Shown here in pieces: positions 11,146-15,653 of a stretch of DNA of 64,000 bases. How positions within the stretch are numbered: position 1 is the stretch's first letter; the number at the start of each line of letters is the position of its first letter. The notes beneath the pieces are model-generated. The model saw only the letters and a list, made by a program, of their open reading frames with translations, did not search any database and was not told the origin of the DNA. Source of the DNA: Opitutaceae bacterium (GTDB lineage Bacteria > Verrucomicrobiota > Verrucomicrobiia > Opitutales > Opitutaceae); assembly GCA_027490995.1 (NCBI GenBank), contig JAIXWY010000005.1, forward strand, positions 1 to 64,000, written 5' to 3'. Position numbers and translations under genes: made by a program.

Positions 11146-11428
11146 CGCGAGCCCGCGGGCTGCGGTCGGCGTGAATCCGACGCGCCCACGACGAAAATGG
11201 GGGTGCCGTGTGGCTTCGTCCTACCTCGTTAGCGACGGTGGCGTGGCCACGGTTTCACGGGCGAGGTGGACCCGGATCATTGGACGGCGGATCGGGTAAA
11301 ATAGGTTAAGATAAGAGAGGGTCGCAGGGGGAGGGCCGAAGCTCCTCAACCGCTCCCCGATTCGAGGGTCAGGCTTTGCCGCGCGCCCTGTGCGGCGGAT
11401 GTCGGCGATCATCACCGGACAAGCCGGA
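11146..11428. other. Intergenic, no gene seen
   Basis: 283 bp between the sulfatase and the VF530-type gene. A 12-bp GC palindrome (11150-11161, AGCCCGCGGGCT) lies just after the sulfatase stop but has no T-run. An A-rich patch at 11295-11320 stands out from the GC-rich surroundings. No supported reading frame. Confidence 0.5.
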
Positions 11429-11671
11429 TCAGTGGGCATCCGGAAGGGCTCGCCGGGACTTTCCCTCCACGTAGAGGTCTTCCACCTTCTTGCGCGCCCA
11501 AGGCGTGCGCCGGAGGAACACGAGGCTTGAGTTGATGCTGGGGTCGAAGCGGAAGCACCGGATGTCCACCCGATTGGCGAGCCCCGCCCAGCCGTGCGCC
11601 GCGACGAGCTCGGTCAGGAGTTGCTTGAGCGTGACGCCGTGCAGAGGGTCCTTGCTCGGAGTGGATTCCAT
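11429..11671 (-). CDS. VF530 family DNA-binding protein
   Basis: 80 residues from ATG 11671 (MESTPSKDPLHG). The frame stays open upstream, but that part translates a repeat element, so the internal ATG is chosen. The core KDPLHGVTLKQLLTELVAAHGW, INSSLVFLRRTPWARKKVEDLY matches the VF530/DUF2132 family almost end to end. Members are small helical proteins with a DNA-binding-like fold; their biological role is unknown. Its upstream region is occupied by repeat element A. Confidence 0.88.
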   Translation of the reverse strand: MESTPSKDPLHGVTLKQLLTELVAAHGWAGLANRVDIRCFRFDPSINSSLVFLRRTPWARKKVEDLYVEGKSRRALPDAH

Positions 11672-11786
11672 CCCGCTAACGTCGTGAACCCGCCGCGCGA
11701 TGCAAGCACGGGCCGGGGCACCGTGGCACGTACCGCGGCGGCACGCCGGCCAGCAGCCCCGCGCTGACGAGACCTTCACACGCACG

Positions 11787-11855
11787 CAAGGGGTCAGGCT
11801 TTGCTCTTTGCCGTCCGGCCTTTTTCTGGAGGTCACACGCACGCAAGCACGCACG
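11787..11855 (+). repeat. Partial tandem copy of repeat element A
   Basis: This 69-bp unit repeats the left end of the adjacent element: 11787-11832 matches 11856-11902 almost base for base (28-bp terminal repeat plus about 18 bp of core). It ends in a run of CACGCACGCAAG-type short repeats. It looks like a tandem duplication of the element end. Confidence 0.85.
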
Positions 11856-11965
11856 CAAGGGGTCAGGCTTTGCTCTTTGCCGTCCGGCCGTTTTCTGGAG
11901 GGCGACGGAGCGACGCGGGAACCCGACTCGGCTGAGGACGGCAAAGTACAAAGCCTGACCCCTTG
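11856..11965 (-). repeat. Repeat element A (110 bp, inverted core)
   Basis: Terminal inverted repeats of 28 bp at 11856-11883 and 11938-11965 (2 mismatches) begin CAAGGGGTCAGGCTTTG. The 54-bp core matches the cores of elements B and C only when reverse-complemented, so this copy is flipped. It lies between the VF530 gene and the PagL-like gene. REPIN/MITE-like, non-coding; short frames across it are artefacts. Confidence 0.88.
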
Positions 11966-11990
11966 AGGCGCCTTCTCTTCTCCCGCCCCC

Positions 11991-12003
11991 ATCGCACGGT
12001 GTC
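11991..12003 (+). repeat. Secondary conserved motif beside element A
   Basis: ATCGCACGGTGTC here recurs exactly at 13037-13049 beside element B. The 20 bases after it are also related (GTCC-GGACCTGGCCC here, GTCCTGACATGACCCC there). It is a second repeated block in the same orientation in both places although the cores of A and B are opposite. Confidence 0.7.
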
Positions 12004-12087
12004 CTACGTCCGGACCTGGCCCAGTTTGGAGCGCGTCACACCGTTTGGAGGGCGGTGGCTAACCAGCCCGGGCGCCGCGGCCGGGAT

Positions 12088-12708
12088 CTAGCGCGACCAC
12101 GAAAGGCGGAGGGCCAGGCCGTCGTATCCGGAATTCCGCGAGAGCAGGTCGGCGTTGGAAAAGTGTAGCCAGATTAGCCCGACCGTCCACGGGCGCGACG
12201 GCACCTCCCATTCCAGCCCACTGAGCAGCTTGAAGTTGAAGTGGGTGCCGTCGGCGGGGAAGTGGCGGGAGGCGCCGTGCACGCCGAACTCAACCAAGAC
12301 GGTGGGGAGCCGCGCCAGCGCGCCAACGCGAGTCTCCGGGGCCAGCCGCCAACGAAATTCACGGCCGGCGCTAGCCAGCGCAGCATGCCCGCCGGCACTC
12401 CGGAAACGTCCCGTCGTGGCGTCGTAACTATTGTAGACCTTGGCGTAGCCGATCCCCGCGGTCCAACGGGTCTCGCTCGAGCGAAGCAGGCGCGCCAAGG
12501 GATCCAGCGGGCTGTCCCACGCCCACGTCAGACGGAACGGGAGTCCTTCGTGCGAAATATCCCACGCTGGGACATCCGCGTAAACCCAAGCGCCGCGGCG
12601 GTCCAGGGTCGCGCCACCGGCAGCCGAGGGCGCCGCAGCCAAGAGCGCCAGCACAAGGGTCGCGAGACCGACAAGGCGAAGAGCAGGAAGGGTGCCGCAG
12701 AAGAGCAT
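12088..12708 (-). CDS. PagL-like lipid A deacylase (acyloxyacyl hydrolase) family protein
   Basis: 206 residues from ATG 12708, with a signal peptide (LVGLATLVLALLAAAPSAAG). The C-terminal strand IWLHFSNADLLSRNSGYDG matches the PagL signature His-x-Ser-Asn...Asn-x-Gly: His182 and Ser184 line up with the catalytic His and Ser of Pseudomonas PagL, and Asp196 sits where PagL has Glu. Such proteins are outer-membrane barrels that remove an acyl chain from lipid A. The Glu-to-Asp change leaves activity uncertain. It begins 143 bp from repeat element B. Confidence 0.72.
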   Translation of the reverse strand: MLFCGTLPALRLVGLATLVLALLAAAPSAAGGATLDRRGAWVYADVPAWDISHEGLPFRLTWAWDSPLDPLARLLRSSETRWTAGIGYAKVYNSYDATTGRFRSAGGHAALASAGREFRWRLAPETRVGALARLPTVLVEFGVHGASRHFPADGTHFNFKLLSGLEWEVPSRPWTVGLIWLHFSNADLLSRNSGYDGLALRLSWSR

Positions 12709-12851
12709 GCCCCCACCATATGCGTTTCGTCAGGGCCGCAAGCCGCACACGATTGCGGCGCCAGCGCCATTGGACGGAGACCGAGCGTAGCAGCGGAGCA
12801 GGAGGGTTCCCGCCGCTCCTGCCCGCCTCGGGCTACCGGCGGACACGCACG

Positions 12852-12962
12852 CAAGGGGTCAGGCTTTGCTCTTTGCCGTACTCAGCTCAGTCGGACTCCC
12901 GTCGTGACCCCGCCGCCCAGCGGAAAACGATCGGACGGCAAAGAGCAAAGCCTGACCCCTTG
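12852..12962 (+). repeat. Repeat element B (111 bp)
   Basis: Perfect 28-bp terminal inverted repeats at 12852-12879 and 12935-12962 enclose a 55-bp core. It matches element C at 107 of 111 positions by eye. It lies in the divergent 498-bp gap between the PagL-like gene and the outer-membrane barrel gene. No reading frame of its own. Confidence 0.92.
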
Positions 12963-13036
12963 GGCGGGGTTTGGCGGCGCTTGGACCGCGAGGCCCCCTT
13001 GGACGGCGAGCCCCTCCCGGCGCTTCTCCCGCGCAG

Positions 13037-13049
13037 ATCGCACGGTGTC
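13037..13049 (+). repeat. Secondary conserved motif beside element B
   Basis: Exact copy of the ATCGCACGGTGTC block at 11991-12003, followed by GGTCCTGACATGACCCC. It lies 75 bp from the end of element B, against 26 bp for element A. Confidence 0.7.
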
Positions 13050-13206
13050 AGAGGTCCTGACATGACCCCGGTTGGGACGATGAGCGGTGCGTACTCTCTG
13101 AATACCGTTCATTCGCTCCGTTTTCCATTCGAGCGGAACAATCGACGGTTCGCCCCTCCCGGCTCGCTCCAGCGGCGCGGCGCGGCACGACTGAGCTCGC
13201 CTACAT

Positions 13207-14208
13207 ATGACGCACATATCCAAACGTTTCTCTGTCCTTGCGGGAAAGGTGGTCTCGAGCGCGGCTCCTTTCGCCCTCACCTCCTCGCTCCGTTCCGTAG
13301 CCCTTCGCGGTTGCGTCGGCGCGTGCCTTGCCGCCGCTGGCGCCTCCCCGGCCTGGGCACAGCCCGGAGGAAGTGGACCGGCTTCTTCGGTGAAGGTGAC
13401 CTTTTCTCACTCGGCGGAGTCCGATGCGGATCTGCTGGGCATATCGGCGGCAGGGACAATCGCAGTCGATGCGTGGAGCGTATCGGGTAAGACCACGCGC
13501 GTGCTTCGCCCTGGCGTGTTCGCATCCGTGGGAGCCACGTGGGAGCAGTACTCCATCGACGCCCCGGTCACGAAACCATCGACTAGTCTCTCGTCGAAAC
13601 TGCCAGTCCCGGAGAAGCTCCGCGGGGCCGCGCTCGATCTCTCTGGTACGATGACGTTGGACGCGGGCTGGATGGTATCGCTGACGGTTTCGCCGGGCTT
13701 CTACTCCGCCGGATCATCGCTCGGATCGGACGGTTTCAATGTGCCCGGCCTGCTTCTCGGCACCCGTCGGATCAGCCCGACGCTCTCGATCGCGGTGGGC
13801 CTGCGCTTTGACGGATTCTCGGATAACTCGCTGCTGCCCGTTGCAGGCCTCCGCTGGCAGCCAACGCCCGAGTGGCTGGTGTCGGTCGGTGCGCCGCGGA
13901 CTGAGGCGGTGTACACCCTTCGCGAAGGCCTGAAAGTCTTCGGCGGGGCCTCCCTCCAAGGAGGCGGCTTTGCGGTCGATGACCGACGTCTGGTCTCCAG
14001 TGGTAAAATCTCTCTTCGCGACACGTACGTCGATTACCAGGAAATCCGCGCCGGGCTCGGCGTTCGCTGGGATCTAAACGAGACGCTGGCCCTCGAGATC
14101 GAGGGAGGTTGGATCGTGGATCAGCGGTTTGATTACTACGAACGGTCACTGGAAGTGACAGCGGGTGGCGCGGCGTTCGGACACATCGCCCTCTCAACCC
14201 GGTTCTGA
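13207..14208 (+). CDS. Probable outer-membrane beta-barrel protein (DUF6268-like)
   Basis: 333 residues from ATG 13207. A long N-terminal basic/hydrophobic segment ends in ASPAWAQ, a plausible signal-peptidase site near residue 51. The mature part is built of alternating strands (VKVTFSHSAESDADLLG, LPVAGLRWQPTPEWLVSVGAP, YVDYQEIRAGLGVRWDL) and ends in Phe (IALSTRF), as expected for an outer-membrane barrel. The pattern LPVAGLRWQPTPEW recalls DUF6268 proteins, common in Verrucomicrobia; that assignment is tentative and no function is known. Confidence 0.65.
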   Translation: MTHISKRFSVLAGKVVSSAAPFALTSSLRSVALRGCVGACLAAAGASPAWAQPGGSGPASSVKVTFSHSAESDADLLGISAAGTIAVDAWSVSGKTTRVLRPGVFASVGATWEQYSIDAPVTKPSTSLSSKLPVPEKLRGAALDLSGTMTLDAGWMVSLTVSPGFYSAGSSLGSDGFNVPGLLLGTRRISPTLSIAVGLRFDGFSDNSLLPVAGLRWQPTPEWLVSVGAPRTEAVYTLREGLKVFGGASLQGGGFAVDDRRLVSSGKISLRDTYVDYQEIRAGLGVRWDLNETLALEIEGGWIVDQRFDYYERSLEVTAGGAAFGHIALSTRF

Positions 14209-14366
14209 CGAGGGCCAAACAGCCTACGTCCTCACCTGTCCATGGTCTTCAATGGGAATGCCTCGCCCGGCCCTCGCGTCGGCCCAACCCATCGCTCGCC
14301 CATTAGCGAGCGACCGGCGCGGCACGATCATGGGTGATCCTCGCCCCCGGCACAAAGGAATCGATG

Positions 14367-15143
14367 ATGTCCCCGACCCCACCCTCGCACGACCCCCTCA
14401 AGCCCTCGCGCTGCCTTTATCTCATCGCAGGGTTCGTCCTACTGCTGCAGGCTATCATCATCTTTGCGCCGATGGCCGTGCTCGGCGGGGCGATCCAGTG
14501 GCCTGACAGCCTCGATTATTCGCCCGCGCGGATGCTGCCCCTGCTTTGGGAGCAGCTCGGTGCCGTACGGCTGGGTTACGGCCTGTATCTTGGCTACTCC
14601 CTGCTCTTCCTAGTGACCGGCGTCTTGACGGTGCGTCTGGCGGCCCGGCCTGGTCCGATGGGAACCCTTGGCCTGATCGCCCTTGGCGCGGCGGCGGTTT
14701 CGACGCTGGCCCGGGCCATCGGGATCATTCGCTGGCTCACCGGCAGCGCGGCGTTGGCCGAGGCCTATTCAAAGCCCGACCTATCTCCGGAAGCGCGCAC
14801 CGCAATTGAAGCGATGCAGGCGGCCATCAATGCGTGGGGTGGCGCCATCGGTGAGGCGTTGGGGGTTGCGGCCTTCGCGGCGATCTGGGCGATCTCGGCG
14901 AGCCTGCTCATCCTGCGCGATCGCCAGCTCCCGAGATGGGCGGGCGTGACTGGACTCGCGGCGGGCGTGCTTGTCGCGCTACCCGTCATCGAACTCTTCG
15001 GCATCGCGCCCCCAGTCTCGATCGTGCTCTCGACGACGGGGATGCAGTTCTGGTTCATGGCGCTCGGCGGATTGTTCCTTTGGCGCGGCCTCCACCGCCC
15101 GGAATGGCGAGCCGTGAGGGGGCATGTCTCGACTCGGGACTGA
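14367..15143 (+). CDS. DUF4386-like integral membrane protein
   Basis: 258 residues from ATG 14367, chosen over ATG 14364 because AAAGGAA at 14354-14360 is better spaced to it. About six hydrophobic helices are visible, including CLYLIAGFVLLLQAIIIFAPM, GYSLLFLVTGVLTVRLAA and IVLSTTGMQFWFMALGGLFLW. The overall pattern resembles DUF4386 membrane proteins of unknown function. No operon partner; element C starts 140 bp downstream. Confidence 0.6.
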   Translation: MSPTPPSHDPLKPSRCLYLIAGFVLLLQAIIIFAPMAVLGGAIQWPDSLDYSPARMLPLLWEQLGAVRLGYGLYLGYSLLFLVTGVLTVRLAARPGPMGTLGLIALGAAAVSTLARAIGIIRWLTGSAALAEAYSKPDLSPEARTAIEAMQAAINAWGGAIGEALGVAAFAAIWAISASLLILRDRQLPRWAGVTGLAAGVLVALPVIELFGIAPPVSIVLSTTGMQFWFMALGGLFLWRGLHRPEWRAVRGHVSTRD

Positions 15144-15284
15144 CACCTGCGGGCGCGATGGGACCGCCATCGCGATGGAGACGAGTCAGCGGACCGCGAC
15201 AAAGCAGCGCTCAGCGCACTCGGAGGGCAAGCACTCGGCACTCAGAACTGCACCCAAAGGGTCAACTGAACCCAAAACTGAACC
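15144..15284. other. Intergenic with short tandem repeats
   Basis: 141 bp after the DUF4386-like gene. Three 11-base repeats of the form AACTG(A/C)ACCCA sit at 15246-15256, 15264-15274 and 15276-15286, the last merging into element C. No gene seen. Confidence 0.6.
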
Positions 15285-15395
15285 CAAGGGGTCAGGCTTT
15301 GCTCTTTGTCGTACTCAGCTCAGTCGGGCTCCCGTCGTGGCCCCGCCGCCCAGCGAAAAACGATCGGACGGCAAAGAGCAAAGCCTGACCCCTTG
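15285..15395 (+). repeat. Repeat element C (111 bp)
   Basis: 28-bp terminal inverted repeats at 15285-15312 and 15368-15395 with a single mismatch; core in the same orientation as element B and differing from B at only 4 of 111 bases overall. TTGGACGGCAGT-like 12-mers follow at 15393, 15407 and 15425, possibly remnants of further ends. It lies 183 bp upstream of tRNA-Arg. Confidence 0.92.
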
Positions 15396-15577
15396 GACGG
15401 CAGTTCTTGGACGGCAGTGACCCCGTGGACGACAGTTTGGACCTGAATCCGGATCCTGAGGCGCTTCTGGTGCAGCACGGCAGGAGTCCGGATCTCCGGC
15501 GCAGCACGCACGGCTTGATGGCTCGGGCGTTGACCCCGGAGCAGCGATGAGTTCTCTCGGAATTCGGTCACCGCGTC

Positions 15578-15653
15578 GTCCCCATAGCTCAAGTGGATAG
15601 AGCAGTCGTTTCCTAAACGACTGATCCGTGTTCGAGTCACGGTGGGGGCACCA
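15578..15653 (+). tRNA. tRNA-Arg (anticodon CCU), CCA encoded
   Basis: A full cloverleaf can be drawn: acceptor arms GTCCCCA and TGGGGGC (15578-15584, 15643-15649), D stem GCTC/GAGC, anticodon stem GTCGT/ACGAC with loop TTCCTAA, T stem CCGTG/CACGG with loop TTCGAGT, discriminator A and an encoded CCA at 15651-15653. The anticodon CCT in DNA reads AGG arginine codons, a rare codon class in such GC-rich genomes. No integrase or duplicated tRNA end is seen nearby. Confidence 0.95.

Follow-up and report, generated by a model that had tools for sequence, protein, structure and literature searches.

The window analysed here, a stretch of 64,000 nucleotides (nt) from an Opitutaceae bacterium (contig JAIXWY010000005.1, positions 1 to 64,000), carries between a sulfatase gene and a tRNA-Arg gene three short elements, A, B and C, whose ends are inverted copies of a repeat beginning GGGG. 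We followed up an original prediction, made from the letters of the window, that had described them as one palindromic element related to REPINs (inverted doublets of repetitive extragenic palindromic, or REP, sequences) or to miniature inverted-repeat transposable elements (MITEs). The elements are as follows:

11856-11965, minus strand: element A, 110 bp, with inverted ends at 11856-11885 and 11936-11965 and a core reversed relative to B and C
12852-12962, plus strand: element B, 111 bp, with perfect inverted ends of 28 nt
15285-15395, plus strand: element C, 111 bp

Alignment bore out the predicted coordinates, the terminal inverted repeats of about 28 bp (28 nt and 100% identical in B, 30 nt and 93% in A, 29 nt and 97% in C), the agreement of B with C at 107 of 111 positions (about 96% identity) and the reversed core of A, which aligns to B in reverse only (score 69 versus 29 forward). 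Folded as single-stranded DNA with about 12 nt of flank, the elements reach -44.6 to -47 kcal/mol (z = -6.9 to -8.6), a stability matched by 0 of 200 shuffles of each, and the REPIN feature of an inverted doublet forming one long hairpin is present in all three. A lone end repeat folds poorly (-1.5 kcal/mol, z 0.55), and the hallmark of GTAG-type REP sequences, a stable single-repeat hairpin with a GT[AG]G tag at its foot, was not found in a repeat that begins GGGG.

A dispersed repeat family and its transposase gene

The lack of further copies had been named as the outcome that would speak against a mobile element; the genome-wide search returned 62 exact copies of the 14-mer end motif GGGGTCAGGCTTTG in the 3.47-Mb genome (28 forward and 34 reverse, on 11 contigs), against 0 copies of its reversed control. 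The repeats occur as dimers of about 105-160 bp with cores shared within subfamilies, and the expectation of related cores holds in part: eight members share the core of A, B and C, and many others have different cores. Contigs C2, C5, C6, C11 and C15 start within 25 nt of a motif copy, C10 starts within about 110 nt of one, and C6 and C11 end at such repeats; because the assembly breaks at repeats, the copy counts are lower bounds. Among 115 genomes including its own, the exact motif is present in 17 (16 of the 114 others), and a protein like the transposase RAYT-1, described below, in 74 (E <= 0.001, partial matches counted).

No Y1 transposase match lies within the window, in keeping with the predicted lack there of a REP-associated tyrosine transposase (RAYT); the search elsewhere in the genome gave two Y1/HUH transposase genes (PF01797), on contigs C2 and C5. 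RAYT-1 (C2:9216-10187, minus strand, 324 amino acids, PF01797 E 8e-11) lies between inverted copies of GGGGTCAG at C2:9207(+) and C2:10233(-), a span of 1038 bp, and the motif includes the stop codon of the gene, TGA being the complement of the TCA in GGGGTCAGG. Such a TGA-CCC stop, the complement of the motif's GGGTCA, is found in 14 of 32 transposase loci, RAYT-1 included (L102-L131, L059 and L097). The protein carries the motifs NHFH, FQG and YIHLNP, and across the 30 loci formed by RAYT-1 and 29 relatives NH[YF]H is present in every one, FQG in 28 (L121 and L130 have only FEG) and Y[IV]HLNP in 29, the last reading YIHMNP. At 23 of these 30 loci the gene is flanked by an inverted pair, with GGGTCA on either side and a spacing of 1.0-1.2 kb; of the rest, L107 has a pair with one letter off on one side, five have no pair and L131 has an unrelated one. 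The second gene, RAYT-2, is an open frame at C5:43375-44388 between copies of its own end GGGGTCATGTCAGGACATAG, of which the genome holds 48 copies with up to 3 mismatches, against 0 for the reversed control. RAYT-2-type elements recur every 0.3-4 kb, in the manner of an array, at G000:C1:73500-93400 (L088) and on G000:C11 (L162).

These features correspond to a published type. TIRtrons are Y1 transposase genes between long terminal inverted repeats that fit GGGGWSAS, and their repeats form moderately abundant families in which many copies are dimers or lie in clusters (Di Nocera et al., 2013; PMC3733652); here, likewise, a gene lies between GGGGWSAS inverted repeats that are dispersed as dimers. 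Every trait by which TIRtrons and their TIRYT transposases are recognised was found, namely a Y1_Tnp domain with the HUH and catalytic Tyr motifs, flanking GGGGWSAS inverted repeats and a dispersed repeat family. TnpA-Y1 subclass 2.1, which probably corresponds to TIRYT and has been equated with Bertels group 1, is the largest subclass of class 2, with 493 sequences, and is marked by a long protein with NHVH or NH[YF]H, FQ and Y[IV]HLNP motifs (Quentin et al., 2018; PMC6006769). RAYT-1 shares NH[YF]H, FQ, Y[IV]HLNP and the length of the protein, and differs from the survey as far as its main-text passages go, in that they report no REP-like sequences beside subclass 2.1 genes whereas the end repeat of this gene is the dispersed motif. 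In a search for the C-terminal helix-turn-helix of subclass 2.1, Pfam gave Y1_Tnp alone for the 324 residues of RAYT-1 at E 0.001, and no PDB sequence matched at E 0.01.

A, B and C are thus a REPIN-like family of the TIRtron/TIRYT type, with GGGGWSAS ends and subclass 2.1 motifs, and not of the GTAG-type REP/RAYT. The many copies, together with a cognate Y1 transposase gene flanked by the same ends, support the REPIN- or MITE-like label, and the further suggestion of REP sequences moved by a RAYT was right in spirit, except that the repeats belong to the GGGGWSAS terminal-inverted-repeat branch (TIRYT, subclass 2.1) and lack the GTAG tag. REPINs are dispersed inverted doublets that form one long hairpin and have a cognate transposase and a putative excision intermediate with a 5' tail (Bertels and Rainey, 2011; PMC3116915). 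The elements here resemble them as hairpin-folding dispersed doublets with a cognate transposase, and differ in having no GTAG tag, no stable single-repeat hairpin and copy numbers far below the 1,422 16-mers of that study. Elements of the IS200/IS605 group, such as IS608, also use a Y1 HUH enzyme (PMC8266576), whereas both ends of the present elements are one repeat, inverted, and the NCBIfam IS200 transposase model scores far below its cut-off (20.2 and 31.2 versus 55 bits).

Tails and tandem copies at the element ends

Outside their GGGG boundaries the elements carry tails of about 12 nt, which are repeated head to tail at several ends. The tails, their copies and the neighbouring repeat ends in the window are:

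11363-11378, plus strand: degenerate solo end motif CGAGGGTCAGGCTTTG, with 3 mismatches to the 16-mer
11778-11834, plus strand: partial tandem copy of the left end of A, the 12-nt tail and about 43 nt of the element (end repeat and start of the core), 98% identical over 54 nt at offset 69
11835-11858, plus strand: the 12-nt tail twice in tandem (ACACGCACGCAA and GCACGCACGCAA) before A, d = 12, starting 11 nt before GGGG
11991-12025, minus strand: degenerate RAYT-2-type repeat end, assigned by visual comparison with the end of RAYT-2 and too divergent to be caught by the search with 3 mismatches; first copy of the predicted second motif
12843-12854, plus strand: left tail of B, its last 11 nt CACGCACGCAA as in the left tail of A, but adjoining the opposite core end
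13037-13069, minus strand: RAYT-2-type repeat end, 13050-13069 having 3 mismatches to GGGGTCATGTCAGGACATAG; second copy of the predicted second motif
15246-15287, plus strand: tandem tails left of C, AACTGCACCCAAAGGGTC, AACTGAACCCAA and AACTGAACCCAA, d = 12, starting 12 nt before GGGG; also at offset 30
15393-15437, minus strand: tandem tails right of C, read on that strand as AACTGTCGTCCACGGGGTC, ACTGCCGTCCAAG and AACTGCCGTCCAA, d = 14; not an exact tandem by the second detector described below

The predicted tandem duplication of the left end of A is real, with the copy at 11787; on that side a long copy with about 43 nt of repeat and core is followed by bare tails, and C has arrays on both sides.

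A first detector, which looks for the tail repeated upstream (usually with the first nucleotides of the end repeat), registered tandem tails at 13 of the 62 RAYT-1 ends and, in relatives, at 10 of the 30 ends with this motif. Its controls gave 110 of 20,000 random window positions, 0 of 139 pseudo-ends placed 30 nt upstream (offsets to 20 only) and 3 of 92 other GGGGTC sites, one of the three being the tail array at C6:5248 met from the other side. With other end repeats the counts were 7 of 18 (all seven in genome G071, with 0 of 5 ends in G024), 8 of 17 in G014, 1 of 4 in G012 and 0 of 3 in G018. A degenerate end pattern scarcely exceeded its reversed control by count, if at all, in three genomes (17 versus 13, 4 versus 8 and 3 versus 4), and the G014 rows were inspected one by one. 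A filter on completeness, ambiguity and identity of tails reduced the 39 tandem rows of this detector to 24 tandems; their starts lie 11.8 +/- 1.1 nt ahead of GGGG, and their ends between -0.5 and 42 nt inside the repeat.

A second detector presupposes no tail and accepts any exact copy of 10-60 nt, arranged head to tail, in contact with the GGGG boundary. It marked 11 of 20,000 random positions but 40 of the 216 end rows: 11 of 62 for RAYT-1, 2 of 47 for RAYT-2, 9 of 30 in relatives, 5 of 42 at transposase loci, 6 of 18 in G071 and G024 together and 7 of 17 in G014. Two ends stand in two sets (L109/L199 and L113/L218), so that the 39 listed tandems are 37 distinct ones, of which 34 start 10-14.5 nt before GGGG, whereas the ends lie anywhere between about 0 and 42 nt inside the repeat. 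Ends too close to a contig end were left out (4 of 66 for RAYT-1, 1 of 48 for RAYT-2 and 1 of 31 in relatives), and 21 of the 30 transposase loci were used: L102, L106 and L107 are in other sets, L105, L116, L118, L120 and L127 have no pair, and the pair of L131 is unrelated. The tandem with a fixed start and a variable end is common to several end-repeat families, and the second family of this genome hardly has it.

The tails also recur among related copies. Across 39 core-homologous end pairs, which are not independent of one another, identity outside GGGG is 0.53-1.0 for 12 nt, falls to 0.44 at 13 nt and 0.29 at 14 nt, and is 0.34-0.47 again at 15-18 nt. Among RAYT-2-type copies of the C11 array, 10 of 15 pairwise matches start 10-13 nt outside the left end, and the five that involve copy C11:10728 start nearer to the end. 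Tails of about 12 nt accompany many, not all, related copies. The TIRtron account, in its main-text passages (PMC3733652), mentions neither dimers of about 105-160 bp with shared cores nor tails of about 12 nt with tandem scars, and the main-text sections on REPINs (PMC3116915) do not describe this structure of tail and tandem. TIRtron-type REPIN-like elements are known, and this family is a further member of that kind; its recurrent tail signature was not found in the main-text passages of the literature searched.

Proposed mechanism and its rivals

The spread of REP-like repeats by domesticated transposases has been termed poorly understood (PMC8266576). We consider it likely that A, B and C are mobile elements that form hairpins, are not autonomous and, as REPIN-like dimers of a terminal repeat, belong to the TIRtron family of RAYT-1 on another contig, and that they have passed through the nicking, extension, rejoining and core reshuffling set out below; this reading draws on the many dispersed copies, the cognate gene within the same ends, the empty site of the 4.4-kb block that holds them, the tails of about 12 nt and the head-to-tail duplications. 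HUH enzymes cleave and ligate single strands (PMC6006769). As proposed, RAYT-1 would recognise the terminal repeat and nick about 12 nt outside GGGG, ahead of the tail and GGGGTCAGGCTTTGCTCTTTGCCGT on that strand, which would make the tail part of the mobile unit. In IS608, cleavage likewise falls some nucleotides outside the terminal hairpin, and a tail is thus part of the element. The freed 3' end would sometimes be extended over the tail and the first few nucleotides of the repeat, and the extended end rejoined to the 5' end of the tail would leave a tandem copy that begins at almost the same place each time and ends at varying ones, the trace expected of a nick at a fixed site, limited 3' extension and rejoining. 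The cut site is a prediction from the tandem pattern. Recombination between the near-identical inverted ends would reshuffle or flip cores relative to tails, and could account for A versus B.

Several observations weigh against this account. In the congener G004, 11 exact motif copies come with no RAYT-1-like match (L168-L174), possibly as an orphan family or by a gap in an assembly that is 94% complete and in 400 contigs, and the NCBIfam model REP_Tyr_transpos scores below its cut-off (59.6 versus 80 bits). The tandem signature of the RAYT-2 family is weak, with tandems at 3 of 47 ends by the first detector and 2 of 47 by the second, no better than the 3 of 92 at control sites. At nine loci of other, named organisms, a fitting inverted pair was found only in L094 and L097, and a tandem only at L097 (Geobacter argillaceus, repeat GGTGTCAGACC), at both ends and with a looser setting. 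The first detector requires about 10 tail letters and is blind to shorter starts; of the distinct tandems of the second, two have nearer starts, at about 4 and 6 nt, and a third is ambiguous; and the ends, many from related or neighbouring copies, are not independent. B and C, 96% identical, have neither tail in common, and tails therefore do not always travel with the core.

The main rival, which strikes us as rather unlikely, leaves the elements dependent on a transposase and derives the tandem tails from replication slippage at the hairpin base, where replication would stall, slip back by about one DNA turn and recopy the flank. Single-stranded hairpins as stable as those of A, B and C invite such an event, slippage at a hairpin also yields tandem copies, which adds to the points against the proposed nick, and most tandems end 0-8 nt into the repeat, close to the hairpin base; yet slippage predicts no preferred start, whereas the observed start is near-fixed, some tandems extend 34 and 42 nt into the repeat, well inside the hairpin, and a tail common to many dispersed related copies points to its being part of the mobile unit. 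Nested insertion into the GGGGTC of another element is disfavoured as a source of the tandems, since the displaced remainder GGCTTTG appears within the next 60 nt in 0 of 8 cases (of 11 RAYT-1 tandem ends, 8 had the far end within 400 nt; at C2:116 only 11 nt were available). An origin by chance local duplication without any mobile element, to which the position of A, B and C within 3.6 kb might point, has a negligible probability and is refuted by copies on 11 contigs, by the exact motif in the 16 other genomes and by the Y1 transposase genes.

The orientation of the cores bears on another reading, an invertible-DNA switch in which the core, perhaps acted on by the transposase or RecA, would flip between the inverted ends and alter the expression of a neighbouring gene. 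Six of the eight members of the A/B/C subfamily have one core orientation and two, A and C12:715552-715654, are reversed; the latter shares a 13-nt right tail with C12:712212-712316 despite its reversed core, just as A and B share the last 11 nt of the left tail with opposite cores. The predicted inversion between the end repeats therefore stands as a relative flip, with a second case on C12, but the landmark cited for it does not: the second motif ATCGCACGGTGTC, given correctly at 11991 and 13037, belongs, as a degenerate end, to the second such repeat family of this genome; being of RAYT-2 type, it is no neutral or independent marker of orientation, and we rejected it as one. B rather than A may carry the rearranged pair of tail and core, because in A the pairing resembles that of a C11 copy, where the tail GCGCACGCAA stands next to the same core end. 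The outer tails still show a reshuffling of cores and ends; a regulated or invertible switch is not supported and seems to us very unlikely, since the other six members point the same way, the RAYT-2-type copies that match the exact core motif show one orientation (6 of 6 on C1 and 6 of 6 on C11), no promoter or recombinase is tied to the core (promoters were not scanned), and A and B, at different places and 15% divergent, are not one site in two states. An integron-like array of gene cassettes, with the repeats as recombination sites and blocks of open reading frames (ORFs) between hairpins, is more improbable still. ORFs do alternate with elements in the window, and the RAYT-2-type copies on C1 and C11 return at intervals of 0.3-4 kb in one orientation, but the ends belong to a Y1 transposase gene and no integron integrase scored above cut-off in the genome, which is 94.67% complete (best TIGR02249 match 79.7 versus 265 bits).

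If the proposed mechanism is right, the mobile unit would be tail and hairpin together and not the hairpin alone. It is possible, as a tentative generalization from these patterns, that TIRYT transposases of subclass 2.1 cut about 12 nt outside a GGGTC-type repeat and that abortive nicking, extension and rejoining writes tandem scars of tail and truncated repeat. The fixed start and variable end would then amount to a footprint by which REP-type transposition can be read across phyla, and the tail signature would offer a precise cut-site prediction for subclass 2.1 and a sequence-only marker of past activity.

The accessory block

A, B and C are interspersed among four ORFs, with VF530, PagL, DUF6268 and DUF4386 domains, in a block whose other features are:

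11148-15519, no strand assigned: accessory block with A, B, C and the four ORFs, absent between sulfatase and tRNA-Arg in the congeners G003 and G004
12088-12708, minus strand: ORF with a PagL (lipid A deacylase) domain, between A and B (Pfam PF09411, E 3.8e-9)
13207-14208, plus strand: ORF with DUF6268, between B and C (PF19783, E 2.2e-10)
14358-15143, plus strand: ORF with DUF4386, between B and C (PF14329, E 4.6e-11)
15578-15653, plus strand: tRNA-Arg (CCT), kept in the congeners and the right landmark of the empty site

That A, B and C lie in an accessory stretch between the sulfatase and tRNA-Arg was confirmed by empty sites in these two congeners, where the matched edges (window 11143 or 11147 and 15520, in flanks 84-90% identical) are 81 nt apart in G004 and 150 nt apart in G003, against 4,376 and 4,372 nt in the window. 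The empty site spans the whole block of about 4.4 kb, and because both breakpoints fall in non-homologous DNA a target-site duplication is not definable and none could be read. The block is an example of such repeats accompanying gained genes beside a tRNA. In both congeners, at about C2:7609-7668 (L071) and C254:11128-11187 (L172), a pair of elements lies just past what, by eye, resembles a tRNA 3' end; the two pairs carry different cores, and could be a single site whose core has been replaced.

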